Assembly: GCA_001829155.1 (NCBI GenBank)
Contig: MIAO01000144.1
Coordinates: 1-49,765, forward strand
DNA length: 49,765 nucleotides
Reading direction: 5' to 3'
From: Spirochaetes bacterium GWB1_36_13
GTDB lineage: Bacteria; Spirochaetota; GWB1-36-13
The translations under genes were made by a program, and so were the position numbers. The notes below the pieces were generated by a model. The model ran no database searches. It was not told the DNA's origin and saw only the letters and a program-made list of their open reading frames with translations. Positions 228 through 15,888 of the stretch are shown here, in pieces; the first letter of the stretch is position 1; each line of letters opens with the position of its first letter.

Positions 228-264
228 ACCCAACTCCATATATACGACAAAACTTTCGTATATT
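228..264 (-). other. Decayed attI-like palindrome beside the recombinase remnant
   Basis: ATATACGA (240-247) and TCGTATAT (256-263) form an 8-bp palindrome with an 8-base loop. On the minus strand it is followed by GTTGGGT, which fits the integron core consensus GTTRRRY. The palindrome sits about 27 bp downstream of the stop of the recombinase remnant. The complete recombinase has a longer palindrome with the same outer sequence 41 bp downstream of its stop (9712-9767). The parallel placement suggests the same kind of primary att site, here shortened. Its function is inferred from position and sequence only. Confidence 0.42.
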
Positions 265-290
265 CCGGATACACTGGTAAAGTACGACAT

Positions 291-442
291 TTAATTATCC
301 AGCGGACTCCTTACATTTCTAATCGTCTGAGCGCTCACATGAGTATAAATCTCAGTTGTTTCACTCGATTTATGACCCAGTAATTCCTGAATCATCCTCA
401 AATCAGTTCACGCTTCTTTTTTATTTCCAATATTCTCTCCAC
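291..442 (-). pseudogene. Remnant of a second copy of the tyrosine recombinase (internal deletion)
   Basis: Read on the minus strand, the sequence starts with a GTG and about 28 bases nearly identical to the 5' end of the complete recombinase at 10834. It then jumps to the last 39 codons of that gene in another frame. This tail still reads [15 protein letters not shown] and TTEIYTHVS, so it keeps the catalytic His and Tyr, and ends near SPLDN. About 870 bases, covering the catalytic Arg, Lys and His-x-x-Arg, are missing. In the intact gene a short direct repeat (AACGGAA) occurs at both deletion points, about codons 10-12 and 301-303, which suggests deletion by short-homology recombination. 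The AT-rich upstream leader also resembles the intact gene's leader. The remnant cannot be active. Confidence 0.85.
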
Positions 443-528
443 AATTCAAAAATAAATATATAAAAAAATTTATAATAAGCAAAAAAATATTGACTCAACC
501 CTGAAAGCAGGCTAGGCGGGAAAATTTC

Positions 529-666
529 AGATAATGTTCCCGCGATATGTGATGCTCCTGAGGCTTAGAAGGGTGCAGTCTGAGGGTCGTGAGCAGAGCG
601 AACCCCCGAAGCAAACCCTGTCCCGTCAGGGCTTGCCGATGGAGTATCATATATCGTGTGTTATGT
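529..666 (-). other. attC-like recombination site 6 (distal end of cassette 5)
   Basis: Long imperfect arms at 543-558 and 641-656 pair at 14 of 16 positions (CGATATGTGATGCTCC against GGAGTATCATATATCG). They are bracketed by TGTTATG on the gene side and AGATAAT on the distal side. The loop of about 80 bases is GC-rich (it contains GAGCAGAGCGAACCCCCG), unlike the AT-rich genes around it. The overall plan (outer core, asymmetric spacer, stem, variable loop) is that of integron attC sites. Beyond it, from about 484 to 516, lies the upstream region of the recombinase remnant. Confidence 0.6.
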
Positions 667-2649
667 GAAGGATTTAGTTTTTAATTACTTGCTGTGTAGT
701 CTTAAAGTTTAGTTTCGCAATTTTAGTTAACTCTCCTTCTCCATTTTTTTCTATAATAGATTTTGTAACTTTTATTACCGTTTCATTTGCTCCTTTTGGA
801 ATAGTAATTCCATATTTTATTCCCATAGCTTCGATAGATGTTAAAAACCCTTCTCTTGCTAAAATAGATGCAGCTGCTACTGCAATATCTCTTTCAGCTT
901 TGTGAATTTGCAGTAACTCTATTTTTTTCCCATTTTCCATTAATGCCTTATTTATATATTCTTCATTTCCAAATTGGTCTGCAATTGCAGCTGTACAATC
1001 ATTTTTTATTAATAAGTTTTCGATTGCTCGTGCATGCCCCCATGCTAATAATTCGTTCATATTTTTCATTTTGTCGTATAACTCATTGTATTTTTCTGGA
1101 TTTATTTTAATAACACTATATTTATCTTCTCCTACAAGTCTCCTGATTTCTGGAGCCATTTCTTTAATTTTGCTATCACTTATTGTTTTACTATCTTTAA
1201 CGCCCAATGATTTTAATTTCTCGTTTGTTTCTTTATCAACATATACTCCAGCAATTACAATTGCTCCTAAGTAGTCACCTTTTCCAGATTCGTCAGTTCC
1301 AATATGTGATTCTTTTGTAAAACTTAGAAATTTTTCTTCTTTTTCTTTATTGATTTGATTAGAGTCTTTTTCTACATTTTGCACTACTAATAAATCTTTT
1401 TCTTCACTTTTATATGTTTCATCTTTTTTTGTTTGACAAATATCTTCATCCGTTAACCCCGCTCTTATCAAAATATTGTAGGCATCTCTCATACAAGCTT
1501 TTATTTCACCAACTTTATCAAATGCTTCCTCAGGATTTTGAATACAAATTATTCTTCTATCTCCTAATGGGTCAGAATGCATTTCTTTACATCTACTTCC
1601 TTCCCAAATTGCTATCATTTTTTCTAGAACATATCCATATCGTCTTTCATCTGTAATATATTTTTTAAATTTTAGTTTTCTCAATGCATTTCCTACATCG
1701 GCAATTTCAGGATTTTTCTTGTAATCTTCAATAGTGAAAAAGTCTTTTTCTATCATTATTTTTATTATAAATCCTTCATATACTTTGGCAAACTGTGCAA
1801 CTAAAAAATTATATTCATCCAATTTTTCACTTACTTTCTTAATAATTTCTACTAACGCTAATCCTGTTGAATATGTCTTCTTATCATTTTCAAACAAGTA
1901 ATCCTCAAATCCCTCTGGAAAATTTTTAACTCTTTCGTTCATCTTCAATAACATTTCTGAGTTTTCTTTAATTTCTTTCTCAATTTTATTTTTTTCTTTT
2001 GCAGAAACATAAAAAAGTGCTCTTTCCATATCATCCAAAGGCTTATAAGCATTTATTATTTCAGCAACTTTATCTATTAAGTCAGAATAAATTCCTTGAA
2101 CCACTAAATTTCCACTTTTATACAATGTAACAACACAAGAAAAGTCATAATAAGTTATTTTATATATAAATTCCTGATGTTCATGTTTTTCCAACTTCTC
2201 AATTTGAAAAGTATTTTCTATTGATTCTTTAATTATTTTTTGAATTTCAGTGTCTTGAATTTTGATTGATGCACTAACAGGAATTCTATTTTCAACTCCA
2301 TCAGGTTTTATTACTTTTAACTCTAAATTACTACAAAATATATTTTCAAAATCTTGTGTAGCCTTTTCAATTATAATTTTAGAAGAATTCTTACCTTTAA
2401 AATATATTATGATTGAAGCAAATTCTTTGGAATGTTCTATATTCAATTTATATCCACAACCGTTATTTATTTCTTTTTCTTCTATCACTTTTGCCCCAAT
2501 CTGACTTATTTTCTCTTTGACTATCATTATAGAATCTTCTTTTTGTTTTACAAATTCAATGCTTTTCATCGTTCCCCTCTCTTTATAAAACTATTTTTAT
2601 TTTATAATATTTAGAATATAATTTCTTCGTTTTGAATCTTTCACCTAAC
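536..2649 (-). mobile_element. Gene cassette 5 (HEPN-RNase HIII fusion), attC-like site included
   Basis: This unit runs from the core at 2643-2649 (GTTAGGT on the minus strand, a perfect GTTRRRY) to the next core at 529-535. The gene region is flanked by cassette-specific inverted repeats: 660-676 matches the reverse complement of 2633-2649 (GTTATGTGAAGGATT against GTTAGGTGAAAGATT). The unit is about 2.1 kb and holds one gene. Cassette identity is inferred from the repeated site architecture, not from known mobility. Confidence 0.6.
674..2569 (-). CDS. RnlA-like HEPN toxin fused to an RNase HIII catalytic domain
   Basis: A 631-residue protein. Residues 1-175 look like two TBP/RnlA-type repeat domains; the second contains an SGNLVVQG strand typical of both RnlA and RNase HIII N-termini. 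Residues 215-370 resemble the Dmd-binding/HEPN part of RnlA, with the HEPN motif R-x4-H at R326-H331 (RCKEMH). After a charged linker (375-420), residues 422-631 form an RNase H type 2 domain: DESGKGD at 426-432, D531 and E559 (HKAERD), which would complete the D-E-D-E metal site. Ordinary RNase HIII is about 300 residues, so the first 370 residues are additional. Known for the family: RnlA/LsoA are anti-T4 toxins stimulated by host RNase HI. Inference: this fusion carries its own RNase H partner. No RnlB-like antitoxin gene is adjacent. GAGGGG precedes the ATG. The call as an RNase H2-type enzyme is firm; the RnlA similarity is from recall. Confidence 0.78.
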   Translation of the reverse strand: MKSIEFVKQKEDSIMIVKEKISQIGAKVIEEKEINNGCGYKLNIEHSKEFASIIIYFKGKNSSKIIIEKATQDFENIFCSNLELKVIKPDGVENRIPVSASIKIQDTEIQKIIKESIENTFQIEKLEKHEHQEFIYKITYYDFSCVVTLYKSGNLVVQGIYSDLIDKVAEIINAYKPLDDMERALFYVSAKEKNKIEKEIKENSEMLLKMNERVKNFPEGFEDYLFENDKKTYSTGLALVEIIKKVSEKLDEYNFLVAQFAKVYEGFIIKIMIEKDFFTIEDYKKNPEIADVGNALRKLKFKKYITDERRYGYVLEKMIAIWEGSRCKEMHSDPLGDRRIICIQNPEEAFDKVGEIKACMRDAYNILIRAGLTDEDICQTKKDETYKSEEKDLLVVQNVEKDSNQINKEKEEKFLSFTKESHIGTDESGKGDYLGAIVIAGVYVDKETNEKLKSLGVKDSKTISDSKIKEMAPEIRRLVGEDKYSVIKINPEKYNELYDKMKNMNELLAWGHARAIENLLIKNDCTAAIADQFGNEEYINKALMENGKKIELLQIHKAERDIAVAAASILAREGFLTSIEAMGIKYGITIPKGANETVIKVTKSIIEKNGEGELTKIAKLNFKTTQQVIKN

Positions 2650-2802
2650 ATTTGCGACTATAAGACCGAGTAGGGTTTGCCATGAGCAAACCCGTAAGCG
2701 AGGCAAGGGAACGAAGTAACCGCAGCGTTCGGCTGAAAGCCGAATGTCGGGCGAAGCCCTGGAGGGCAGCTTGACTGCCCAGAGTGATAGTCGCTGTTGT
2801 GT
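2643..2802 (-). other. attC-like recombination site 5 (between cassettes 5 and 4)
   Basis: Perfect arms GCGACTAT (2654-2661) and ATAGTCGC (2787-2794) enclose a long, GC-rich loop with internal hairpins, for example GTTCGGCTGAAAGCCGAATG near 2728. Cores at 2643-2649 and about 2796-2802 flank it. A 62-codon minus-strand reading frame crosses the site, but its composition is explained by the folded site and it is not called as a gene. Confidence 0.58.
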
Positions 2803-3278
2803 GATGTAACTATTTTCACAGTGCGGCATTTTTCATTGGTTCTCTGTTAAAAAGATTATAAAAATAAAAACATAATACACCGATGAGAAAGGTAAAAAGG
2901 AAATTAACGATTGTGATTATTTCTATCTGTCCATTTATAATTTTAGTGAGAGAAAGCAAGATAGTTATTAACATGTGAAAAGCTCCGGATTTCACATATA
3001 CATTATTGAATGGGATTTTACTTTGTATTTTCAAAAATAATATGGAGAGGAGACCACCAATGGCTCCAACACCAACGATCAGAAAGAGCATAAAAATAAT
3101 CATTGATTTGATTTTGTCATTTTCAAATTTTATCGATCCAAGTATAATTAGATATAAAAAATTGAATATATATAAAATCATATATGCAATCATTCCGCCT
3201 AAAAATCCTTTTTTTAAATTCATGTAAACTCCATGTTTTTATTTGCCGCACATTACGAAAATAGTTATTTCACACAAT
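2650..3278 (-). mobile_element. Gene cassette 4 (small membrane protein), attC-like site included
   Basis: This unit lies between the cores at about 3272-3278 and 2643-2649. It has the longest cassette-specific terminal inverted repeat in the array: 2796-2828 pairs with 3244-3278 over about 30 positions, sharing TAACTATTTTC and GTGCGGCA blocks. The stop codon of the gene lies inside the left repeat, so the repeat tightly frames the coding sequence. The unit is only about 0.63 kb. Confidence 0.6.
2816..3223 (-). CDS. Small multi-pass membrane protein, cassette-encoded
   Basis: A 135-residue protein with about four hydrophobic segments (roughly 8-32, 40-65, 75-95 and 100-122) joined by short, lysine-containing loops, ending NREPMKNAAL. 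I recognise no family motif. It is the only gene of its cassette, and its TGA stop lies within the cassette's left inverted repeat. It starts at ATG 3223, after a leader TGGAGTTTAC on the minus strand that supplies GGAG about seven bases upstream. Small membrane proteins are common cargo of chromosomal integrons and sometimes act in stress or phage exclusion; nothing in this sequence shows which. Confidence 0.7.
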   Translation of the reverse strand: MNLKKGFLGGMIAYMILYIFNFLYLIILGSIKFENDKIKSMIIFMLFLIVGVGAIGGLLSILFLKIQSKIPFNNVYVKSGAFHMLITILLSLTKIINGQIEIITIVNFLFTFLIGVLCFYFYNLFNREPMKNAAL

Positions 3279-3453
3279 GTTCTGCGGCGAGATGCGGTAC
3301 CGAAAAGGGTAGTAGCCGCCACATACAATATTACTAACCTTAAAAATCTAAACCAAAAACTGGTGAAATAAAAGCCACATTTTTGGTATCGAGGGAAATC
3401 CGTAATTTTAGGATTTTTGATGATTTTCCCGTCATTGCGCCGCTGTTATATGA
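3272..3453 (-). other. attC-like recombination site 4 (between cassettes 4 and 3)
   Basis: This is the least regular site of the array. The outer arms TGCGGCG (3283-3289) and CGCCGC (3440-3445) lie just inside the flanks AATGTTC and TGTTATAT, which match the other sites. The loop of about 150 bases contains a secondary hairpin around GGGAAATCC...TTTTCCC (about 3392-3431). Reading frames crossing it have no RBS and no protein-like composition. Confidence 0.5.
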
Positions 3454-4410
3454 TGGCGCGCATTCATTTAAAACAACTATTTTAAAACAGAACAATAAAA
3501 AGGGTGGTAAAAATCTTCTTCATACCCCAATTTATTTGCAACTCTTCTTGAGCCAATATTATCAAAATTTGTTCCCCAAATTGGATTAAATCCATTTTCA
3601 AGACAATACATAATCATTGCTGCTGCTGGATATACTCCTAAACCTTGACCTCTAAAGTTTTGATCCGTTTCAATTCCAACATCAATCATATCATTTGAAA
3701 TAAATGAAGAAAATGATGTACTAACAACCATTTCGTCTTTTAGAAGGCAATAACCAATTCCTTTGCTTAAGAATTTTTCCATAGTGTCCCATGAAAAACT
3801 AGGTATGATTTTACCAGTGATTTTTATATAATTTTTCTCATCAATTCTTTTTAGTTTAAAACCTTTTGGAATCTGGTTAAAAAAGTCTTGTCGGTTGATA
3901 AATACAGATTTATTGAACTTGAATCGTACTCGTTCAAAGGCAAGAACATTTTCAGATAAAACTTTTTTTAGCGTTATTATTTTTTCATCTTGATCCAGGT
4001 TAGAGTCATTGCAAATCACTGAATAATCTTTTAGGCGATCTCCTAGCAAATTATTTAGTTTTTCATTCCAGGTATCAGGATATGTCACCAAGCGGATTTG
4101 TTTGGGTTTAGTATTAGCTTCTTTTAACATTATTTCAATCAGCTGATGATTAAATAAATCGTTGTTTTGATTTCCGCATAAAAGGGAGAATCCTGAAACA
4201 AAGTGAGAAATAAATGCCGTGTTAGGATGTTGAATATTGTCAACAAAAATAGAACCATTTTGTATTTGATCGATTACTGCTTGTGCAAACACTTTGTCAA
4301 AATTGACATCTTCAACAAGCGGCAAAACAAGATGATATTGGCTAGGTTCAATTTTAATCATAAGAAGATTACTCCATACTAAATATTTTTTTTGCGCGCT
4401 TTCATATAAT
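3279..4410 (-). mobile_element. Gene cassette 3 (GNAT acetyltransferase), attC-like site included
   Basis: This unit lies between the cores at about 4404-4410 and 3272-3278. Cassette-specific inverted ends are 3447-3464 (GTTATATGATGGCGCGCA) and 4393-4410, whose reverse complement matches at 15 of 18 positions. The GC-rich GCGCGC block inside otherwise AT-rich sequence makes the pairing stand out. The unit is about 1.1 kb with one gene. Confidence 0.6.
3477..4361 (-). CDS. GNAT-family N-acetyltransferase (PF12746-like), cassette-encoded
   Basis: A 294-residue protein from the ATG at 4361, chosen because GGAG precedes it by nine bases. The frame is open further upstream, but only through the attC-like site. 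The C-terminal half carries the acetyl-CoA-binding segment IETDQNFRGQGLGVYPAAA, with the R-G-Q-G-L-G turn, followed by NPIWGTNFDNIGSRRVANKL and GYEEDF, the usual GNAT beta5/alpha4 region. The length and the long N-terminal half fit the GNAT_acetyltran (PF12746) group. The substrate is unknown. Acetyltransferases are frequent integron cargo, including in antibiotic resistance, but nothing here points to an antibiotic. It is the single gene of its cassette. Confidence 0.8.
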   Translation of the reverse strand: MIKIEPSQYHLVLPLVEDVNFDKVFAQAVIDQIQNGSIFVDNIQHPNTAFISHFVSGFSLLCGNQNNDLFNHQLIEIMLKEANTKPKQIRLVTYPDTWNEKLNNLLGDRLKDYSVICNDSNLDQDEKIITLKKVLSENVLAFERVRFKFNKSVFINRQDFFNQIPKGFKLKRIDEKNYIKITGKIIPSFSWDTMEKFLSKGIGYCLLKDEMVVSTSFSSFISNDMIDVGIETDQNFRGQGLGVYPAAAMIMYCLENGFNPIWGTNFDNIGSRRVANKLGYEEDFYHPFYCSVLK

Positions 4411-4554
4411 GTTCCGTGTGTTGCCGAAGTTGCCAGCACCACAAACTTTATTTCTAAATTTACAAAATAATCCAAGCAAAACTAAATCTCCCAAATTCTA
4501 ACAAGATGCTGGCAATTTGGGTGAGCGCAGCGAACCGGCAACACACTGTTATCT
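4404..4554 (-). other. attC-like recombination site 3 (between cassettes 3 and 2)
   Basis: Outer arms CGTGTGTTGCCG (4415-4426) and CGGCAACACAC (4536-4546) are followed inwards by a second pair, AAGTTGCCAGC (4427-4437) and GCTGGCAATTTGG (4508-4520). The loop is AT-rich on one side, with a GTGAGCGCAGCGAA insert on the other. On the minus strand the outer elements read AGATAAC ... GGAACATTATAT, giving the asymmetric spacers expected of an attC. The arms are almost identical to those of site 2 at 7711-7871. Confidence 0.7.
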
Positions 4555-4597
4555 GATGTGCCGTGCTAAATACCAATCAGTACGCCATGGATGGCGT

Positions 4598-5674
4598 TTA
4601 TTTATTTTTGTTTTGGTTTTCTAAATATTCTAAATATTTAATTATTTTTTTATATTCGATTAGTTGCATATATTCTTCCATGTAGTGATAATCTGGATTT
4701 TCATTCTCATTAATAGGTAATATTATACTCTCTTTTTCCAATCTTGTAGAACTTCTTTTATAGCCAAAATTGTATTTACCCCTTACTTTATCAGCAACAG
4801 TAGTTATAAAAGTTCCACTATATCTATTAATATTTGGACTGTATCCTAAGGTCATATCCGAAGTTGCAATAAAATCCTCAGCTTTATAAACTGAGTATCC
4901 CATAGAACCTTCTCCATTTCTTATAAATGCAATACAATTACCTTTCTGAATTAACTTATTATCTTTATTTACTTGGCACAAAACCCCATTATTTTGATTA
5001 GTTGCACCTAAATAATTAATTCCTTTTTTAGATTTGTTTAAATGATTCAAACCTTTAGATTTACCTGGTACTAACCTTTCAAAGAGTTTACCTATTTTAA
5101 ATTCTTTCCATTCTTTTTGTGATAAAAATTTCAGATTATTTGAATAATTAATACCTTCTATTTTAGACAATATATACTTCTTGTATTTTTCAATCAGAAG
5201 TTGCTCCTTATCTTGCATAAAAGATTCCATAAATTCATAGTCGGGTTTACCATTTAGATTTACAGGTAAAAGTATTTTTTCTTTTTTGATTCGATTATCG
5301 TTGATTTCACGGTTATAGCTATATTTTTCATCTAAACGCGAAACTATATTCGCAATAAATAGATAAATATATTTATTAAAATTAGGATTTTCCAATTTAG
5401 TAACATGATCACTAGCAATAAACCTATAAGGTTGGTAAAAACAAGCTCCGACACTTCCACTATTCGCAATAGATAAACAATTAGAAAAAATTCTCACATC
5501 AGATGTATTGCTTATAAAGTTATCAACTCCATTATTCAAGGCAGTTGAAGAAATATAAGGCATTTTTCCTAAAAAATGGTCATTAGTTTTAAGTCGCTTC
5601 CCTCTTTGGATATTAGGAAAAACCTCATTAATGAAAAATTCTTGCCATTTTAAACCGTTCAATCTGTTTTTCAT
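4598..5674 (-). CDS. DNA-sequence specificity subunit (HsdS/BcgIB-like)
   Basis: A 358-residue protein with two tandem target-recognition halves. Each opens with the same kind of segment: LKWQEFFINEVFPNIQRGKR near residue 9 and WKEFKIGKLFERLVPGKSKG near residue 188. Each half also contains a Y-I/L-x-x-T/S core (PYISSTALNNGVDNF and NYLGATNQNNGV). This duplicated layout, with helical spacers after each half, is typical of type I S subunits and of the B subunit of BcgI-type enzymes (about 340 residues). It begins two bases after the methylase/nuclease gene, so the two are translationally linked. It should set the recognition site of the pair; the site cannot be read from sequence. Confidence 0.85.
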   Translation of the reverse strand: MKNRLNGLKWQEFFINEVFPNIQRGKRLKTNDHFLGKMPYISSTALNNGVDNFISNTSDVRIFSNCLSIANSGSVGACFYQPYRFIASDHVTKLENPNFNKYIYLFIANIVSRLDEKYSYNREINDNRIKKEKILLPVNLNGKPDYEFMESFMQDKEQLLIEKYKKYILSKIEGINYSNNLKFLSQKEWKEFKIGKLFERLVPGKSKGLNHLNKSKKGINYLGATNQNNGVLCQVNKDNKLIQKGNCIAFIRNGEGSMGYSVYKAEDFIATSDMTLGYSPNINRYSGTFITTVADKVRGKYNFGYKRSSTRLEKESIILPINENENPDYHYMEEYMQLIEYKKIIKYLEYLENQNKNK

Positions 5675-5676
5675 AA

Positions 5677-7569
5677 TTATTCGTCCAACCCAAACAAATA
5701 ACCTTTGCCATGAGTTACCATATTAAACTCAAAAGTCAGGTAATCCGCCATAGTGTTTTCAAAATCCTCATCACATGGGATTTCATCATTAAAATAATAA
5801 AAAGAATGCAACCATTCATCTTCTGGCTCTATAATTGTTTTAACCATAAACCTACTTTCAGCAGGTGCATCATGTCTCCAACAAGATATTAAGCGAGCTT
5901 TTTTTTCTTTTGCTCTTTCTGTTTCTATAAGACCAATATGTTTATTAACAACAAATCCATCATCTTCAAAATTAATAAATTTACAATACTTTTCTTTTGG
6001 GTGGGGCTTGTGTGCTGTAAAAATAGCTATACATGTATTTGTACCTATCCCATAAAAAGTATTTTTATTAAGAGTTATAACACCTTCTAATGAGTGTTTT
6101 TCTAATATATTTTTTTTCACAAGTTTATCTTCATTGGTTTTCCCAACCATAGTTGATTGAGGAACAATCACTGCACATTTTGCGCCATCTGATAAAGAAT
6201 CTAATAAATGCTTGACAAAAGATATTTCAGTCAAATGCGCATTTTCTTTTACTTTTCCTTGAGAATAAGGAGGATTCATTAAACCAATTGTAAACTTATT
6301 TTTTTTAAATTCTTCAGCAGACCTATTTAAAAAATCATCACAAACAAGGTTACTTTTTCCATCTCCTCTTAAAATCATATTTGTAGTAGCAATTGAAAAC
6401 ATATCTTCTCTTACTTCTATACCAAATATTTGATCTTTTTTTATTTTATTTCTGTCTTTTGGTTCGGCTTTTTTTAACATATAGTGCATAGCTGCAATTA
6501 AAAAACTTCCTGTTCCACAACATGGGTCAAAAACAATATCAGAAGGTTGAATATCCAATAATTCACAAAACAATTCAGTAATATGTTTTGGAGTAAGTAC
6601 CACACCTAAAGTTTGACCATCGCCACCACTATACCTAATAAATTCACCATAAAATCGACCTAAAACATCTTCTGGAGTATTTGCAATGACAGATTTTAAA
6701 ATGTTATTTTTTAAGTATTCTGTAAAATATTTTAAAGGAGTCTTTTCTAATCGAGTATCTATGCGATTTAACAAAGTCCTGTCTTTTATTGTGGTGAATT
6801 GATTTAAAATTTTATCTTTTTTTGTTTCAGGTTGAACTTCTACCCTAGTCATATATGTGGAAAGTGCGTCAAATATTTTTTGCCCGTCTGTTTTTAAAGA
6901 ATCACCAATCAAGGAATCAATAGTAAATGAATTATCTTGTAACGCTAATAAAATAGCGGAAACAATAAGAGGTTTTTCTGAATCACCTAATTGGCCATAA
7001 TTTCTGAGATATTCATTAAGTTCTTTAGATTTGCTTAGAATATCTTCCAGTTCAAGAGCTTCAGCAGGTGTTTCTTTTAAAACTTGTTCTTTGTAATATT
7101 TTTCTATGTTTTCTTCAGAAAAATTTTCAAAGTTTTCAACATTTTGAAGAATCTTATACCCATTTTCATCAACATAAATAGGTTTAATTTTATGGTGTTT
7201 TTCATTTCCAGAACAACCAAAAGCAAATATTTTTTTAAAATTAGTTTTTGTAAAAATTTCTTGTGCATAATGGAGAGCTCCATTTTCAGCATAATCAGAA
7301 ATAGATTTATTATCCATTAATAATGTAAAGCCATCATCATTATCATAAATAGCTTGTTTATTTAAATCAGCTTTATCCTCAATAACAATAATAAAATCTT
7401 TTGATTTACCAACAAATTCAGGAAATCCACTTTTACCAGTTCCTTTTTTTGAAGCTGTTTTAAGGGCATCTTGTATTTCTTTTATATCGCTCCCATTTGG
7501 TGTAAATTTTATTTTTGCATTATTTAATAAATTTCCTATAAAAAAATCAGTCTTTCTTTCATTCGCCAT
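5677..7569 (-). CDS. BcgI-like fused nuclease/N6-adenine DNA methyltransferase
   Basis: A 630-residue protein. The N-terminus holds a candidate PD-(D/E)xK nuclease motif, P50-E51-F with E64-D65-K66 (KDFIIVIEDKAD), as in BcgI-type type IIB enzymes. The middle and C-terminal parts form an HsdM-like gamma-class methylase: FDPCCGTGSFLIAA (motif I, SAM binding) and NPPYSQ (motif IV, catalysis), preceded by GVVLTPKHI. Size and gene order match BcgI A (about 637 residues) followed by its specificity subunit. A separate type I R subunit is absent, so cleavage would have to come from the N-terminal domain. The start at 7569 is chosen because GGGG lies six bases upstream; the ATG 18 bases earlier lacks an RBS. 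If active, it would cut on both sides of its site. Confidence 0.82.
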   Translation of the reverse strand: MANERKTDFFIGNLLNNAKIKFTPNGSDIKEIQDALKTASKKGTGKSGFPEFVGKSKDFIIVIEDKADLNKQAIYDNDDGFTLLMDNKSISDYAENGALHYAQEIFTKTNFKKIFAFGCSGNEKHHKIKPIYVDENGYKILQNVENFENFSEENIEKYYKEQVLKETPAEALELEDILSKSKELNEYLRNYGQLGDSEKPLIVSAILLALQDNSFTIDSLIGDSLKTDGQKIFDALSTYMTRVEVQPETKKDKILNQFTTIKDRTLLNRIDTRLEKTPLKYFTEYLKNNILKSVIANTPEDVLGRFYGEFIRYSGGDGQTLGVVLTPKHITELFCELLDIQPSDIVFDPCCGTGSFLIAAMHYMLKKAEPKDRNKIKKDQIFGIEVREDMFSIATTNMILRGDGKSNLVCDDFLNRSAEEFKKNKFTIGLMNPPYSQGKVKENAHLTEISFVKHLLDSLSDGAKCAVIVPQSTMVGKTNEDKLVKKNILEKHSLEGVITLNKNTFYGIGTNTCIAIFTAHKPHPKEKYCKFINFEDDGFVVNKHIGLIETERAKEKKARLISCWRHDAPAESRFMVKTIIEPEDEWLHSFYYFNDEIPCDEDFENTMADYLTFEFNMVTHGKGYLFGLDE

Positions 7570-7658
7570 CTTATTCCCCAATTCCATAGTTTATGAATAA
7601 TTAGTAAGTCATTAAAATTTATAGTTTTTCTTCCCAAAAGTCATCTTTTATCTTTCTT

Positions 7659-7678
7659 AGCCTGCACGGATGCAGGCT
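7659..7678. repeat. Perfect 8-bp hairpin upstream of the R-M pair
   Basis: AGCCTGCA and TGCAGGCT form a perfect stem with the loop CGGA. There is no T-run, so an intrinsic terminator is unlikely. A related hairpin (CCCTGC-ACGA-GGCAGGG) is present at about 11322-11339 in the repeat-rich stretch upstream of the recombinase, suggesting a dispersed family. The rest of the gene-free stretch 7570-7915 is the leader of the R-M cassette, its inverted end, and attC-like site 2. Confidence 0.5.
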
Positions 7679-7710
7679 CTTAATATACAAAACTCTGGCA
7701 CGGCATTTCA

Positions 7711-7871
7711 GATAACGTTCCGTGTGTTGCCGAAGTTGCCAGCCTAACATATAACACACTTTTAAATTTATTCAACAAATCACCCCAAAACCAACACCTG
7801 AAATATCAATATTGCTGGCAATTTGGGAGAGGGCGGCTCGCCCGCCCGAACCGGCAACACACTGTTATACG
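7711..7871 (-). other. attC-like recombination site 2 (between cassettes 2 and 1)
   Basis: Arms CGTGTGTTGCCG (7722-7733) and CGGCAACACAC (from 7853) are followed inwards by AAGTTGCCAGC and GCTGGCAATTTGG (about 7814-7827). A GC-rich hairpin lies in the loop (GGGCGGCTCGCCCGCCC, about 7832-7848). The outer elements are AGATAAC at 7711-7717 and GTTATAC at 7865-7871. This is the most complete attC-like structure in the window and shares its arms with site 3. Confidence 0.72.
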
Positions 7872-7915
7872 AAGTTTTTAGCCTAAAAATAAAAAAACAT
7901 AATTAGGAATAATAA

Positions 7916-9079
7916 TTATTTTAATTTATATTCTAAAATATTTTGTTGTTTCCCGAACATAAAATCATTTAAATATTTGTAATAAAAAGAATATAATGGA
8001 GGCATATCATTAGTTTTCCATTCAACCTCAATATATGGTGTATCATCAGGAAGTATTCTAGGTAAATAATTTGAAATGTGAATAAACCCCTTGCCTTGAA
8101 AACCTTTATCAACTAAAGAAGCACCAAAAGGTATAAAGTGACTATATTCATAAATATTCAAGGTTATATTTGACTTCTGATTTAATGATTCATACCATTT
8201 TTTAATACTATCAATAGATAATGATTTTTCTTTTAAATTTAATTTTCCTACTTTAACCCCAAAAAATTCTTCTATTTGTTTTGATATTTCATCTTTGGCA
8301 TAATAAATATTTATTTTAATTTTTCTATGTTCATTAATATCAATTTGATTCAATATACTTGGTAAAGAAGGATGATAGATTCCAATAAATTCTAATTCTG
8401 CACTATGTTTTACTCGTTCAAGAAATTTTTCATCTAAATTCTTTTTTTTGGGGTAATCATTTGAATAAATATTAGTAAAATATTTTGTTAAAATCTTCGT
8501 ATTTTTACCATAATCTTTATTTTTATTACTTAAAATGATATTATAAACATTGTGTTCAAAACTATGTTTATCAATAACGGTATCTTCATCTATTAAAGTA
8601 AAAGACCAATCATCATTAATTTTAATTTTTCCACCTAAAGAGTCATTTTTTTTTCTTAAAAATTTATTATAGAAAGTTTTACTAACAATAATACCACCAT
8701 CATCAGCACCTGTAAGTATTCTTGCTGCATCATTTATTGTATTACCTATAATATTATTTTTTCGATTAATATCTTTAAGAACATTTACATCACCTACGTG
8801 AATTGCACACCTTATATCACAATCATTACTAATTGTCCAATCTATTATGCCAACAACTAATTCAAAAGATTTTAAATATGAAGAAGTCTTTATATTCTCA
8901 ATACCAGCAATAATCCCATCTCCCGTAGGAATTAAAATACAATCATTGTCAAGTATTTCATCATATAATAAATGATGAATCTCTTTCTGAAATCTTTTAA
9001 ATAAATCAATTTGTATTGGTTCATTATTTTTTGAATAACCAACTAAATCTAGATAAACAATTATATAAGATTTTGGCAT
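7916..9079 (-). CDS. Class III nucleotidyl cyclase with a C-terminal extension (Pycsar-like candidate)
   Basis: A protein of 387 residues from the ATG at 9079, which has GGAG seven bases upstream. A TTG 12 bases further upstream opens the same frame but would overlap the RBS; counted from it, the metal-binding Asp residues are D15 (YLDLVGYSK) and D58 (IPTGDG), and the transition-state pair is N120/R124 (IGNTINDAARI). All are intact, so the cyclase domain (about the first 175 residues) looks active. The C-terminal 190 residues have alternating strands and helices (KIKINIYYAKDEI, IYEYSHFIPFGASLVDKG) and match no domain I can name firmly; a sensor is possible. Short cyclases that open this way occur in Pycsar anti-phage systems making cCMP or cUMP, but the base specificity cannot be read here. 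It is co-transcribed downstream of a TIR-like gene. Confidence 0.78.
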   Translation of the reverse strand: MPKSYIIVYLDLVGYSKNNEPIQIDLFKRFQKEIHHLLYDEILDNDCILIPTGDGIIAGIENIKTSSYLKSFELVVGIIDWTISNDCDIRCAIHVGDVNVLKDINRKNNIIGNTINDAARILTGADDGGIIVSKTFYNKFLRKKNDSLGGKIKINDDWSFTLIDEDTVIDKHSFEHNVYNIILSNKNKDYGKNTKILTKYFTNIYSNDYPKKKNLDEKFLERVKHSAELEFIGIYHPSLPSILNQIDINEHRKIKINIYYAKDEISKQIEEFFGVKVGKLNLKEKSLSIDSIKKWYESLNQKSNITLNIYEYSHFIPFGASLVDKGFQGKGFIHISNYLPRILPDDTPYIEVEWKTNDMPPLYSFYYKYLNDFMFGKQQNILEYKLK

Positions 9080-9096
9080 GATTTTCTCCAAGATAA

Positions 9097-9660
9097 TTAA
9101 TGTGTTATATTACAATTCTTACATTTACTATTATACCTCATCATATCCTGTGGATTAACAATAAATTGGTTTCTTGACGATCTTGCTTTATAAGCATCAT
9201 CAATCCAATCTCCTAATTGTTGAGGCGAATTTGGATATATATAATATCTTGCATAACAATCATTTAATTCTTTATTCCAATTTGATTCAAATCGAGGGGG
9301 TAAATATGCGCTATTTCCTTGGTTAGGTAATATTATCCCAATTAAACCATTGGGTATATAATTTATACCTTGTCTTAATGAACTTTTAATCTCCCAATCA
9401 ACATATCTTCGACTATGTGTACAACTTCCAATTAAGACAATAGTAACAGTAGTATCTTGTAAATAATCATTTCTTATTTTATTCATAACATAATCAGTAT
9501 TACTGCTATCAATAAAATCATCATTATCATTAGCACCTAATACAAAAGGTGTAAAAACGTTTTCTTGATTTGCAAAATAATCAATAAAACTATCAACTTC
9601 AACATTATCTCCTTTATAAAAAGAAATGAATACCTTTCTTTTAATACCATTATATGACAT
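9097..9660 (-). CDS. TIR-like protein of the DUF1863/ThsB type
   Basis: A 187-residue protein opening KRKVFISFYKGDNVEVDSF, followed by DFIDSSNTDYVMNKIRNDYL, TVTIVLIGSCTHSRRYVDWE and GLIGIILP. This order of motifs is that of the DUF1863 (MTH538) TIR-like family, which includes the ThsB sensor of Thoeris. E90 in VDWEI is the candidate catalytic Glu. The C-terminal tail ends in a possible metal-binding CKNCNITH. GGAGG lies just upstream of the ATG. No ThsA (SIR2/SLOG effector) is adjacent; the partner is a nucleotidyl cyclase 17 bases downstream. Inference: either the TIR protein is an effector responding to the cyclase product, as TIR proteins do in Pycsar, or the pair is a new arrangement. No cyclic-nucleotide-binding domain is visible in it. 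Confidence 0.82.
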   Translation of the reverse strand: MSYNGIKRKVFISFYKGDNVEVDSFIDYFANQENVFTPFVLGANDNDDFIDSSNTDYVMNKIRNDYLQDTTVTIVLIGSCTHSRRYVDWEIKSSLRQGINYIPNGLIGIILPNQGNSAYLPPRFESNWNKELNDCYARYYIYPNSPQQLGDWIDDAYKARSSRNQFIVNPQDMMRYNSKCKNCNITH

Positions 9661-9699
9661 TTTATTCCTCCAATTTTATTTTACATGGCTAAAAATTTT

Positions 9700-9778
9700 G
9701 TATAACTCAATATATACGAACTTCGCATATTACTCTTAATTCAATGGAATATGCGAAGTTCGTATATCCCTGTTTAAT
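9700..9778 (-). other. Recombinase-adjacent att site (attI-like) with a perfect 20-bp palindrome
   Basis: ATATACGAACTTCGCATATT (9712-9731) and its exact reverse complement (9748-9767) are separated by 16 bases. Flanks are GTATAAC (9700-9706), a good RYYYAAC core, and GTTTAAT (9772-9778). The site begins about 30 bp beyond the recombinase stop codon and borders the first cassette, so it is the natural candidate for the primary integration site. Its plan is attC-like rather than that of a classical unfolded attI. Confidence 0.62.
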
Positions 9779-9808: not shown

Positions 9809-10834
9809 TTATAAATCATCTATGGGGCTTCTTATATTTTTTAGTATTTTTGTGCTGACATGGGTATAAATCTCAGTTGTTTTGCTGGATTCATGACCCA
9901 ATAGTTCCTGTATTATTCTTAAATCAGTTCCGTTTTCCAGTAAATGCGTGGCAAAGCTATGTCTGAGGGAATGAATTCCTGCTTCTTTCTTTAAGCCGGA
10001 TTCTTTTATAGCATTTTCAAAAACTTTCTGTAATGAACGGGATGTAATTTTCTTTTCATTCCTCTGACCTTCAAAAAGCCAGAATTTAGGGTGATACGCA
10101 TGAAGGTATTCGTTTATATCTCTTGATACTTTATCAGACAAAAGAGTAGTTCTGTCCTTCTTCCCTTTTGCCCCTTTTATGATAAGGATTTTTCTCTCAA
10201 AATCTATATCCTGTATTCTTAAACTCACTGTTTCACTCACACGCAGACCCGCTGAATAAGTGATGGAAAGCATGAGTTTATGCTTGAGATTTTTAACGGA
10301 ATCAATCAGCCTTTTGACCTCTTCTTTACTCAGTACGACAGGTAGTTTTTTTTCTTTTTTAGCCCGTTTGATCTGATAAATAAAATTCTTGCCGAGAATA
10401 CTGCCATAATAAAACCTCAGAGCATTCATGGCACAGTTAAGAGTTGAAGCCGTTGCTTCTTTTTTATCGGCTAGGTAATCCAGATAATTTTTAATATCTG
10501 TTTGATTAATAAAATCGGGGGTTTTACCTGTAAAGGTCAATAGTTCTTTGTTATAAAATGTATATGATTTACTTGTTCTTAAACTATAGCCACGGATACG
10601 GGTTTCTTGAGCAATGGAATCTTTTAGTGGGACTAATTCGGATCCGAAAGAGACTTTAAAATGTTTTTCAAGGTAGTCTCTATTAGAGAGATTATCAGGA
10701 ATAATCCATATTTTTTTGTCAGAAACCCATTTTCTGCCGGATATTTTACGGATGAGTTCAATCAAAGAGGGATTGTATTCAATACTAACTTCAAGCATTC
10801 CGTTATTCTTTTTTATTTCCAATATTCTCTCCAC
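9809..10834 (-). CDS. Tyrosine recombinase of a reverse integron-like array (XerC/D-like)
   Basis: A 341-residue protein with the full catalytic set: R198 (SAGLRVSE), the beta-hairpin Lys in GAKGKKDR (about 222-228), H288 and R291 (HSLRHSFATHL), H314 (LLGHESS) and Y323 (TEIYTHVS). Residues 1-60 are an extra N-terminal domain ending in a KWVSDKKIWIIP segment; the core-binding domain spans about 75-155. Between the Lys hairpin and H288 it reads WLFEGQRNEKKITSRSLQKV, without the RHH-containing insert that defines IntI, so by sequence it is Xer-like. The start is a GTG at 10834; the overlapping ATG is out of frame. It points the same way as the cassettes, with its 3' end next to the att site, so its transcript may read into the array. 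A deletion remnant of a close copy lies at 291-442. Confidence 0.88.
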   Translation of the reverse strand: MERILEIKKNNGMLEVSIEYNPSLIELIRKISGRKWVSDKKIWIIPDNLSNRDYLEKHFKVSFGSELVPLKDSIAQETRIRGYSLRTSKSYTFYNKELLTFTGKTPDFINQTDIKNYLDYLADKKEATASTLNCAMNALRFYYGSILGKNFIYQIKRAKKEKKLPVVLSKEEVKRLIDSVKNLKHKLMLSITYSAGLRVSETVSLRIQDIDFERKILIIKGAKGKKDRTTLLSDKVSRDINEYLHAYHPKFWLFEGQRNEKKITSRSLQKVFENAIKESGLKKEAGIHSLRHSFATHLLENGTDLRIIQELLGHESSKTTEIYTHVSTKILKNIRSPIDDL

Positions 10835-10877: not shown

Positions 10878-10963
10878 AAAAATATTGAGTTCAGGTTTTT
10901 CTTGTTAGATTTTTCCCATAGGATCAAAGCTTAAGTCTTAAAGGACAAGACAGGATTTATTTA

Positions 10964-11636
10964 GTCGACCCTGAAAAACTCATTTTTCAAGTTCAAAAAG
11001 CTCAAAGATTTTTTGCCCACAAACCCCCATCCCCTTATCTCCCAGAGGAAGACAAGGGGAGTTTTAGGAATTACAGTATTGTTTTTCAATAATAATTTAT
11101 TTACATTACCTAACGGTAAAAAAGGAAATTAATTTCAAAATTCCTTCTATTCAGGTTTCTCATTTTATTTTCATTTTAGCATTCATCTGCCCCTCCGTTC
11201 GGCGTCCTGCCGAAAGTCGGGAAATCTTTTTTCTGTTTGGAATTCTCGTATGCAAATTCTCCTAATTTGCATTAAAACCATTTATTATCAAGAATTATTT
11301 TAAGACTTTTATCTCTTTAACCCTGCACGAGGCAGGGTTTCCTCCGTCCGACTTGATTTCACGGATGAAATCACGGAGGACTCCCCCTTGTCCTTAAAGA
11401 TTTAAGGATAAGGGGTTAGGGGTTTGGATTTGAAACCCGCTGGAATAGTCTTAAAATAAGCTGATTCGAGTCCAATCAGAATAAATCTTCAAGACAGTTC
11501 AAAAAAGAATGTGCTGAAAAAACCTCGATTTTTACCAGATTATTGACAAAAGAATAAAAAAACTTGCAAAATTTTTGACTCTTTTTTATAAATTTTTCTT
11601 TACTGTAAAAGATTTCTTGACTTTTTCAGGGTCGAC
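10964..11636. repeat. Non-coding segment bounded by a 15-bp perfect inverted repeat
   Basis: GTCGACCCTGAAAAA (10964-10978) recurs as its exact reverse complement at 11622-11636, with weaker matching on both sides. The right copy reaches the stop codon of the neighbouring acetyltransferase gene. A related motif, GACTCAACCCTGAAAGC, lies upstream of the recombinase remnant (about 491-507). I see no credible gene between 10835 and 11635; the stretch holds several hairpins and a second, longer inverted repeat. It may be a MITE-like element or the landing site of the integron. Confidence 0.55.
11018..11428. repeat. Nested imperfect inverted repeat with self-folding arms
   Basis: The left arm (about 11018-11063, containing CAAACCCCCATCCCCTTATC and GACAAGGGGAGT) pairs imperfectly with the right arm (about 11377-11428, containing ACTCCCCCTTGTCC and GATAAGGGGTTAGGGG). 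Each arm can also fold on itself, because CCCCTT pairs with AAGGGG. Between the arms lie further hairpins, CCCTGC-ACGA-GGCAGGG (about 11322-11339) and GATTTCA-CGGA-TGAAATC (about 11355-11372) framed by CCTCCGT/ACGGAGG. It looks like nested dispersed repeats rather than a regulatory RNA. Confidence 0.5.
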
Positions 11637-12184
11637 TATTTAAATAACTGGTTGAAAGTGTCTTTTGAAAACTGGTGGTTGATAATCTCGGTTTCTTCTG
11701 CCGGATCTTCCGGTTCCTGAGTGAAAAAATAATGAAAACTGATAAACTCTTCCTCTTTCTGAAATCCGAATTTCTGGTAGAGTTTTTGAGCGTTTGAATT
11801 CTCCAGTGCGGTGGAAAGGGTGAGGCCTTTTGCATTTTGATTCCGGGCAAATTCCTTCGCGCGGGTTAAGAGGGCAAAGGCGATTCCTTCTTTTCGAAAC
11901 GGTTCATCGACAAAAAGGTCGTTTAAAATCAGAAGCGGTTTCATCGATACGGAGGAAAAAGTGGGGTAGAGCTGGGTAAACCCGAAGACTATTTTAGGAT
12001 CATTAAAATCATGCGCAAAAAACAAATAAGACTCTTGATTTTGAAACCTCTCCATCAAAAAGGCTCCGGCTCCTGAGAGAAAACTTTTTTGCCCGTAAAA
12101 AATCCTGTATTGGTCAAAAAGCGGAGCAATCAGAGAAATATCTGTCAATTCAGCTTCTTTAATCTTAAATTGAAAATTTTTCAT
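11636..12184 (-). CDS. GNAT-family N-acetyltransferase
   Basis: A 182-residue protein with the acetyl-CoA motif around NDLFVDEPFRKEGIAFALL (R97-x2-G100-x-A102) and the later ENSNAQKLYQKFGFQKEEEF segment, both diagnostic of GNAT enzymes. The C-terminal 30 residues are an acidic extension. It follows uvrB by three bases, with AGGGG inside the end of uvrB as its RBS, so the two are an operon. The substrate is unknown; small-molecule acetylation is most likely. Its stop codon overlaps the inverted repeat bounding the non-coding segment next to the recombinase, which marks the edge of the ordinary chromosome. Confidence 0.85.
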   Translation of the reverse strand: MKNFQFKIKEAELTDISLIAPLFDQYRIFYGQKSFLSGAGAFLMERFQNQESYLFFAHDFNDPKIVFGFTQLYPTFSSVSMKPLLILNDLFVDEPFRKEGIAFALLTRAKEFARNQNAKGLTLSTALENSNAQKLYQKFGFQKEEEFISFHYFFTQEPEDPAEETEIINHQFSKDTFNQLFK

Positions 12185-14197: not shown

Positions 14198-14833
14198 TCA
14201 CTCACAAAATAAATCAGTTAAAAATTGTTTTATTTGGTCAAAGCAAGTGTGATTAAAATCCCAATATTTTTTTTGTGCAGCTTCGCCAAGACTTTTAACA
14301 ATAGGAGCGCGTGTCGCTAAATAGGCTTGTACTTTTGATTTTTGAATATTAAAAACTGATTTTTCATTTTCTGATAGAATAGATTCAAAACAGATATGAA
14401 AATGATCGATGCAAGATTTTACAGGATTATTTTCAATTGATTGTAAGCAAAGGGTTTCAAGCATTCCCTCATTCTGATTATCGGGCATAATAAATATTCC
14501 AACTGAGATATTATCATTTTTTATAATAGTATTAATTGATTTAGGGACAGGGAGTTTATGATCTTTTAAAATTTTAGATATACTGTCAAAAGCAGATTGA
14601 GCAGGGTTTTTTTCTGCATCTCTAATAAAACCTATATGAGTGATGTTTTTGAAATTTTCCATACTGTAAATAAGAGGAAAATCTGATTTAAATTTCTCCT
14701 TTCCACCAATATCAACAATTTGGATTTTTTCTAAATTTAAATATTTAAAAAAAGCTCCAAAAAAATTCTTTTCATCATTTCCTTCAACAGCCAGTATTTT
14801 TTTTTCTTTTAGGGAAAACTTTTCTCCCATCAT
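14198..14833 (-). CDS. TOPRIM/DUF3226-like protein paired with an AAA ATPase
   Basis: A 211-residue protein opening KKILAVEGNDEKNFFGAFF, a TOPRIM-type VEG-x-x-E segment, followed by IGFIRDAEKN (the acidic second motif) and IFIMPDNQNEGMLETLCL. This is the pattern of DUF3226/OLD-type TOPRIM proteins, which often act as nucleases. Its first ATG overlaps the stop of the upstream ATPase gene (ATGATG), and a second ATG three bases on is equally possible. The two proteins likely act together. The layout recalls split OLD and PARIS-type (ATPase plus TOPRIM) defence pairs, but assignment to a named system is inference. Confidence 0.68.
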   Translation of the reverse strand: MMGEKFSLKEKKILAVEGNDEKNFFGAFFKYLNLEKIQIVDIGGKEKFKSDFPLIYSMENFKNITHIGFIRDAEKNPAQSAFDSISKILKDHKLPVPKSINTIIKNDNISVGIFIMPDNQNEGMLETLCLQSIENNPVKSCIDHFHICFESILSENEKSVFNIQKSKVQAYLATRAPIVKSLGEAAQKKYWDFNHTCFDQIKQFLTDLFCE

Positions 14834-15888
14834 CTTACCTCAAATTCTTTTTCAATTCCAGCTATAATTGATTTTGTAGTCAATTTATAGGCATAATGGG
14901 TGTTTTCTCTTTTATCAATCCGATATAATCGAATATCATCTCCTTCCGGCTCTTCTTCCATATAACTTTTAGAAAATGCTTCAATGCATTCATAAGAATG
15001 GGTTGTTGTAATGATTTGAACATTAAATTCTTTTGTTGCTAATAATAACGCTTTCCAAAGTATCGATAAAGATGTGTAATGAAGACCATTTTCAATTTCA
15101 TCAATTAGAATAATTCCATTTTCCATGTTTTGAATAGCAATCAAAATAGATAGAATCCTTCGCATTCCGTCTCCCATAATATTTAAAGGGAGTAATTTAT
15201 TTTGACCGATATCAACATAAAGTGTTGAACCTACCATACGAATATCCAAAAGATTTAATTCTATTTGTTTTAAAATTTTGATAATAGGATTCATCTTTTT
15301 TTGAACAATTAAATTTTCCATACTTTTTACATCAGTTTGAAGTATGGTTTTTGGATTTAAAAAAGAACATTTTAATTCTTCTTTATACTTTCCATCTACT
15401 CTAATTTTACCTTCTTTAATACTGATTTGACTGTTAAAATTTTTATTCTGGTAATTTTTAAATTCTAAACGGATTCCTTCAATGAGACGAACAAAATCAG
15501 TCGATGATGAGACAGTTTCATTATTGCTAATTTCTGTTTGCTTTATTTTTTCAGAAGTTTTTGGATTATAATCTACAAATATTGGATTTATTGAGAGGCT
15601 TCTTTTTCTATTATCTATTTGCCCATTTATTTTTACAGGAAAGGTAAAATCCATGTTGTGGAACATAAAATTAAAATCTTTATCTTCACTCAATATGAGA
15701 TCTCTAAAATTATGAATATTAACCGGCAATTGAGGATTTGACATTCCTGAAAGCAGAAAGATAGATTCTAAGATAGTCGTTTTTCCGCAATTATTTCTTC
15801 CAACTAATACATTGATTCTTTTTAAATCTTCTATTTCAATTTTTTTAATACCTCTAAAATTATCAATATTTATTGAAATATATTTCAT
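14830..15888 (-). CDS. AAA ATPase (OLD/RecF-like, AAA_15/21 type)
   Basis: A 352-residue protein. It has a RecF/OLD-like start (ISINIDNFRGIKKIEIEDL), Walker A GRNNCGKT (30-37), a signature-like segment NIMGDGMRR (236-244), Walker B with D263-E264 (IILIDEIENGLH) and H297 in the TTTHS switch. The insert between 60 and 200 is family-specific and has no motif I know. AGGAG precedes the ATG. The gene overlaps the TOPRIM gene downstream by four bases. Known for the family: such ATPases gate or oligomerise with TOPRIM nucleases in anti-phage systems. The pair sits between uvrB and a hypothetical gene, with a palindromic repeat just upstream, which hints at an acquired module. Confidence 0.82.
   Translation of the reverse strand: MKYISINIDNFRGIKKIEIEDLKRINVLVGRNNCGKTTILESIFLLSGMSNPQLPVNIHNFRDLILSEDKDFNFMFHNMDFTFPVKINGQIDNRKRSLSINPIFVDYNPKTSEKIKQTEISNNETVSSSTDFVRLIEGIRLEFKNYQNKNFNSQISIKEGKIRVDGKYKEELKCSFLNPKTILQTDVKSMENLIVQKKMNPIIKILKQIELNLLDIRMVGSTLYVDIGQNKLLPLNIMGDGMRRILSILIAIQNMENGIILIDEIENGLHYTSLSILWKALLLATKEFNVQIITTTHSYECIEAFSKSYMEEEPEGDDIRLYRIDKRENTHYAYKLTTKSIIAGIEKEFEVR

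Follow-up and report, generated by a model that had tools for sequence, protein, structure and literature searches.

Integron integrases of the IntI type carry an insert, I2, which has been described as necessary for cassette capture and as unique to IntI (PMC7790495, PMC4792948). In the window analysed here, that is, the whole stretch of 49,765 nucleotides from Spirochaetes bacterium GWB1_36_13 (contig MIAO01000144.1), a tyrosine recombinase gene without an evident I2 lies next to an array of attC-like sites. The original prediction, made from the letters alone, left two possibilities: either this recombinase moves the cassettes and recognises their sites differently, or another recombinase acts on them in trans. 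Which enzyme serves the array is the question raised by this locus. The work is computational only and recombination is inferred, but the locus is probably an integron-type platform with its own integrase, which would represent a branch of the IntI-like tyrosine recombinases without I2.

The recombinase gene (int) had been placed correctly at 9809-10834. It lies on the minus strand (10834 to 9809), has a GTG start, encodes 341 amino acids and is transcribed codirectionally with its cassettes. All six catalytic positions of tyrosine recombinases, already recognised in the original prediction, were invariant (R198, K223, H288, R291, H314 and Y323) in an alignment that took in IntI1, twelve relatives from the same phylum and the host XerC/D-like proteins; the IntI1 reference sequence was confirmed at 100% identity in plasmid records. 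Concerning the RHH-containing insert of IntI, whose absence had also been predicted, the alignment, the profile, the spacing and the AlphaFold2 model agree that it is missing. Compared with IntI1, the protein (P0001) is short of 31 residues after the K-hairpin and of about 10 around RRHH, giving a total missing I2/RRHH insert of about 41 residues. TIGR02249, the NCBIfam profile of integron integrases, hits it in two pieces that skip profile positions ~179-232, and the score (226.8) is below the cut-off of 265. KxxKDR and HxLRH lie 59 aa apart, and the AlphaFold2 model (pLDDT 90.7) places in the region of the insert only a hairpin, a helix (234-247), a loop and another helix (265-279).

The top NCBIfam match was NF040815 (recomb_XerA_Arch), with 234.6 bits and the cut-off of 220 passed. 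The name of this family, site-specific tyrosine recombinase/integron integrase, spans both functions and gives no decision between them. The XerC and XerD equivalog cut-offs were missed (181.8 and 181 bits vs 329.6 and 335.2, respectively). The closest fold in the PDB is that of IntI4 (2a3v), and the C-terminus is the IntI-like SP(L/I)D, which is absent in the XerC/D proteins of the alignment.

An extra N-terminal domain of about 60 residues had been suspected as well, and residues 1-66 (10637..10834, minus strand) do form a separate beta-rich domain in the AlphaFold2 model. It is described here as HARP-like on the basis of the model, the Pfam HARP score and Foldseek. Pfam HARP scored 14.8 bits in P0001, 22.1 in L020 and 26.2 in the close relative L106, the only one of the three that exceeds the gathering cut-off of 25. 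Foldseek gave weak matches to the N-terminal region of XPB and to the HARP domain of SMARCAL1 (E 0.24 to 4o66), and a PDB sequence search with this domain found no match.

In minus-strand order from the int stop codon, the window contains an attI-like palindrome, five cassettes, what is left of a second int gene, another attI-like site and an ORF broken off by the contig end, all on that strand. The putative attI (site A, 9704..9774) is found 35 bp past the int stop codon and consists of a 20-bp palindrome, ATATACGAA..TTCGTATAT, followed by TGAG^TT. Cassette 1 (7716..9705) carries a ThsB/PycTIR-like TIR gene (9097-9660) and a PycC-like cyclase gene (7916-9091). Its attC-like site B (7714..7885) reads CTTCGTATAAC A GTGTGTTGCCG .. 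CGGCAACACAC GGAAC GTTATCTGAAA and has an unbroken stem of 11 bp with spacers 1/5. Cassette 2 (4410..7715) carries a type IIG-like DNA methylase (5677-7587) and a specificity subunit (4598-5674), and the inner stem of its site C (4408..4566) is nearly identical to that of site B, the two cassettes being different. Cassette 3 (3278..4409, site D at 3276..3466) contains a GNAT acetyltransferase gene, cassette 4 (2649..3277, site E at 2647..2829) a 135-aa ORF without family match, and cassette 5 (535..2648, site F at 533..678) the gene of an RNase HIII-domain protein of 631 aa. Site F has A.C mismatches on the top strand, G.T on the bottom strand, and its bottom strand is ~6 kcal/mol stabler than the top. 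In the second int gene (293..468) the N-terminal end (414-468) is fused to the C-terminal end (293-409) and the middle is deleted; the second attI-like site (site G, 232..270) and the broken ORF follow it. No credible Rfam family was obtained for the sites.

Some side observations concern these genes and their surroundings. The TIR protein and the cyclase (7916-9660, minus strand) form a Pycsar-like anti-phage pair within a single cassette. Outside the array, an AAA ATPase and a DUF3226/TOPRIM-like protein (14198-15888, minus strand) form a defence-like pair that matches PADLOC AbiLi/PDC-M38. Furthermore, degenerate int copies are present elsewhere in the genome, on contigs C31 (L032:698-874) and C75 (L033:2662-2946). 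Behind the C75 copy there is an attI-like site and then a gene, and the C31 copy has no attI-like site. Together with the remnant in the window, these copies suggest that the genome holds several integron platforms in decay.

Every cassette of the window starts with [G/A]TT, and over 11-20 bases this start can pair with the R'' end of the site on the cassette's own 3' side. This own-end complementarity amounts to 20, 15, 12, 16 and 11 in cassettes 1 to 5, respectively, versus a mean of 5.1 for mismatched ends, and the true pairing of the five starts and ends ranks first among the 120 pairings. For two ends that adjoin each other at a site, the score is only 3-6. Since complementarity of this kind is left by integron insertion, the crossover is placed at [G/A]^TT, right before TT. 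It also contradicts the idea that the hairpins are unrelated repeats, such as terminators or MITEs, with no cassette system involved, for which a nearby MITE-like inverted repeat (10955-11645) could be invoked. Moreover, the perfect motif GAACRTTNNNTGAAA occurs exactly four times in the 3.04 Mb genome, always inside the array, and the same site anatomy is common to other phyla, so this explanation can practically be discarded. As for the MITE-like repeats themselves, they are 28 bp long (89%), have GTCGACCCTGAAAAA ends (10955-10982 and 11618-11645) and flank ~0.64 kb upstream of int; contig C70 has a comparable pair (L034:1963-2191).

To place the enzyme, more than 100 related recombinases were gathered by a genome-wide scan and targeted sequence retrieval, and trees were computed with the insert columns removed. 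Among the relatives measured, the spacing from KxxKDR to HxLRH is bimodal, with 56-65 aa in the I2-less proteins, 99-101 aa in all IntI and none between. The window recombinase falls outside the IntI clade (100/100) and outside the separate XerC/D clade, and it groups with I2-less proteins of Spirochaetota (96/96). Kinship to Treponema-bearing groups and to L106 puts the genome of the window, by inference, in the same phylum. A position inside the IntI clade with a diverged but present insert would have refuted the original prediction; the protein has neither this position nor a diverged insert. In a quick tree, I2-less proteins of Undinarchaeota were the nearest neighbours of IntI. One Undinarchaeales locus (L104:8493-11062) encodes two tandem I2-less recombinases that stand beside IntI in that tree, and its contig ends directly after them.

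Regarding these data, it could be proposed that the enzyme is a once I2-bearing IntI that dropped the insert and that the array is a relic. The decayed int copies in the window (293-468) and on contigs C31 and C75 would fit such a history, and an AU test does not reject all the I2-less proteins as one clade (p 0.38). However, I2 needs a single change on the tree, where IntI is one clade (100/100), and its loss would cost an extra step because IntI forms this single clade and XerC/D also lack I2. The intact gene, besides, has lost none of its catalytic residues, and long arrays persist beside relatives in two phyla. Secondary loss is considered quite improbable for these reasons. Parsimony favours, as an inference, a single gain of I2 in IntI, but the I2-less proteins are not claimed to be proven ancestral, since the AU test leaves their monophyly unrejected.

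The array of the window is not an isolated case. Arrays beside I2-less enzymes occur in many Bacteroidota genomes, isolates included, and there they are always on the 3' side of int, the same as in the window. The 256 kb downstream of Bacteroidota I2-less int genes contain 46 sites of the strict type, and none was detected in 202 kb upstream of them, in 160 kb around proteobacterial I2-less int genes or in 706 kb of shuffled sequence. At least one strict site is present in 16 of the 18 Bacteroidota loci having at least 8 kb downstream. Arrays also accompany a second branch of I2-less enzymes in other Spirochaetota (L027, L028, L029 and L031), in some cases on the opposite side of the gene. No arrays were found with the proteobacterial I2-less recombinases L130, L140-L149 and L164; thus, the I2-less state alone does not imply a cassette array. 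In the window as well as in several Bacteroidota, the first insertion point carries a conserved motif, CGYATATA..AG^TT, and the motif of site A is shared by the Bacteroidota loci L117, L209, L213, L214 and L227. The use of attI as the first insertion point is inferred from this shared motif and from the start of the first cassette at AG^TT in the window and in Bacteroidota.

Such a distribution bears on the second possibility left by the original prediction, namely, that an IntI encoded elsewhere or the host XerC/D acts in trans and that the adjacent int is a bystander. The genome of the window (G000) is 93% complete and the contig ends inside the array, so an unseen enzyme might be considered, and genome G015 has an I2-less int beside its array plus a true IntI elsewhere. 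Against this, no I2-bearing IntI scored over the TIGR02249 cut-off in G000, where just two further intact relatives, both XerC/D-like, are encoded. G015 is also the sole genome of the 20 with I2-less enzymes that has a true IntI; none was found over the cut-off in the other 19, several of which are near-complete and array-bearing. In addition, the arrays begin at int in many genomes, and a dedicated attI motif is located at the int 3' end. Action in trans is hence regarded as very doubtful. Because 19 of 20 genomes and that of the window have no IntI over the cut-off, and because the anatomy of the sites differs consistently from the canonical one, the possibility that the adjacent enzyme recognises its sites differently is favoured.

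These differences in anatomy were quantified. The stem is unbroken in 55 of 64 I2-less sites versus 8 of 29 sites near IntI (Fisher p 6e-8), and a single-base bulge is present in 21 of these 29. In Spirochaetota, sites near IntI have a single unpaired stem base, usually C at top position 6 (bottom G), and even 2/2 spacers. I2-less sites lack the canonical extrahelical base of the L stem, and their unpaired central spacer is present and strongly asymmetric (1/5 or 3/6). It should be noted that the method used to locate sites favours unbroken stems by design and that its recall of canonical attC is low (29 sites in 20 IntI loci).

The I2-less sites are also asymmetric between strands. Stem mismatches with A.C on top (G.T on the bottom) outnumber the reverse by 87 to 17 over all sites and by 80 to 16 over unique stems. 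Such per-site counts overstate independence, since the sites in one genome share ancestry; counted by locus, the asymmetry is 20 to 1 (p 2e-5). In 55 cassettes of I2-less arrays, start positions 2-9 match the end in 53-55 of the 55, and position 11 is mismatched in 54, with A/G (A.C on top) in 40. In positions 9-13 of the outer arms, A.C on top was counted 49 times versus one G.T on top. The bottom strand folds stabler in 48 of 63 sites (p 3e-6). In the window, sites D, E and F are biased, and B and C have perfect short stems with no strand bias. All these counts cover I2-less arrays only, and the orientation of canonical arrays was not established.

This asymmetry bears on a further explanation, according to which the sites are recombined as ordinary double-stranded palindromes in a Xer-like manner, with the hairpin being incidental and no I2 needed. 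The spacing of the enzyme is Xer-like and the 'XerA' family NF040815 is its best NCBIfam match; the attI is a simple palindrome, and the perfect stems of sites B and C would agree with this as well. Nevertheless, a double-stranded site has no reason for the polarity seen in the mismatches (unique stems and outer arms), in the conserved asymmetric spacer and in the stabler bottom strand. Therefore, a Xer-like reaction seems unlikely, although it cannot be dismissed.

Preferring an integron-type reaction by the adjacent enzyme, a mechanism can be proposed, which is inferred throughout. The substrate would be the folded bottom strand, as in classical integrons, and the adjacent recombinase would insert cassettes by attI x attC and excise them by attC x attC. 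In classical attC sites the extrahelical G sets the strand choice, and once the extrahelical bases are taken away, the central spacer can set it by itself (Bouvier 2009, PMC2727003). By analogy, the I2-less sites look like this spacer-only situation made permanent. Strand choice would come from the unbroken L-stem with its asymmetric unpaired spacer (1 vs 5 or 3 vs 6 nt) and from the G.T wobbles. Spacer asymmetry and wobble pairs would probably stand in for the recognition of the extrahelical base by I2, as it occurs in IntI. The HARP-like N-terminal domain, of a fold class linked to junction and fork DNA, may help to hold the hairpin and may replace part of the work of I2. This is the weakest step, and the domain cannot be required in general because other I2-less array enzymes do not have it. 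The enzyme would then cut at G^TT and join the cassette to attI or to another site, and replicative resolution is assumed to proceed as in classical integrons. A point against reading an I2-less enzyme as an integrase is that I2 is necessary in IntI1, according to the work of Messier and Roy as cited in PMC7790495.

The locus shares many features with the classical integrons (for example, class 1, Vibrio, Treponema): a recombinase ending in SPLD, an attI beside int, cassettes in one orientation with attC-like sites, the AAC/GTT core, the G^TT crossover, the bottom-strand polarity, and cassettes of accessory and defence genes. Unlike them, the int of the window has no I2, has a HARP-like N-terminal domain and is codirectional with its array. 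The I2-less sites likewise depart from the classical ones in their stems without extrahelical base and their 1/5 or 3/6 spacers, and the end pairing of their cassettes covers 9 nt with a fixed mismatch at position 11. The simple XerA/XerC-like recombinases (NF040815; archaeal 4a8e, XerA 5hxy) have the same core fold and no I2. Xer acts on a single double-stranded dif site, whereas the int of the window adjoins a cassette array with multiple sites and lies outside the XerC/D clade.

Up to date, no description of I2-less integrons was found in the open-access literature; subscription papers and preprints were outside the search. An 'integron-like' subgroup of tyrosine recombinases has been defined (Smyshlyaev et al. 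2021, PMC8138268), but the insertion is there called essential for integron function, and the portion of that article consulted contains no link of the subgroup to cassette arrays. IntegronFinder needs an IntI-specific profile (PMC9668308), and almost no complete integrons were reported in Bacteroidetes with IntegronFinder 2.0 (PMC9024848). I2 has also been presented as the innovation that enabled single-strand recombination, and whether I2 or attC came first has been explicitly stated as a chicken-and-egg paradox (PMC7790495, PMC4792948), on which the finding of a probable I2-less integron bears directly.

Moreover, relatives of the enzyme were observed beside clinical resistance genes. In Acinetobacter, plasmid-borne tet(X3)/tet(X5) is immediately preceded by a truncated 'xerD'/TnpF, which is an I2-less integrase of the window group (for example, L278:5049-7150 in Acinetobacter indicus p80-1-2-tetX3; 50 plasmid records). 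Between it and the resistance gene there are an attI-like hairpin and the typical cassette start GTTATGTGCCATTTTT, and an attC-like 5' arm is found behind tet(X3). The gene beside tet(X3)/tet(X5)/tet(X14) had been reported as xerD, and the role of the pairing was left open by the authors (PMC7473080). Judging from its sequence, the 'xerD-tet(X)' pairing resembles an I2-less integron with tet(X) in the first position. Another truncated integrase without I2, distinct from the former, lies 110 bp upstream of blaVEB-3 in Klebsiella plasmids (L279:5998-7720 and L280), and the interval likewise holds an attI-like site and a typical cassette start, GTTAGCGGTAAT. Its carriers include IncC plasmids and others.

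Should the adjacent recombinase prove to be responsible, an entire class of integrons would have escaped notice so far, living intermediates would allow tests of how single-strand recombination arose, and the puzzling 'xerD' next to tet(X) genes would be explained. With relatives and matching sites in several spirochaete and many Bacteroidota genomes, the I2-less integron would be a widespread alternative type, and possibly an older one. A broader idea can be put forward only tentatively, at slightly less than an even chance: integrons may have begun without I2, a separate and widespread I2-less lineage would capture folded single-stranded cassettes, and the pair of I2 and extrahelical base would have been added later in the IntI branch. 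In that case, the chicken-and-egg paradox would be resolved, and some clinical resistance genes, namely tet(X3) and blaVEB-3, would occupy the first-cassette position of I2-less integrons.
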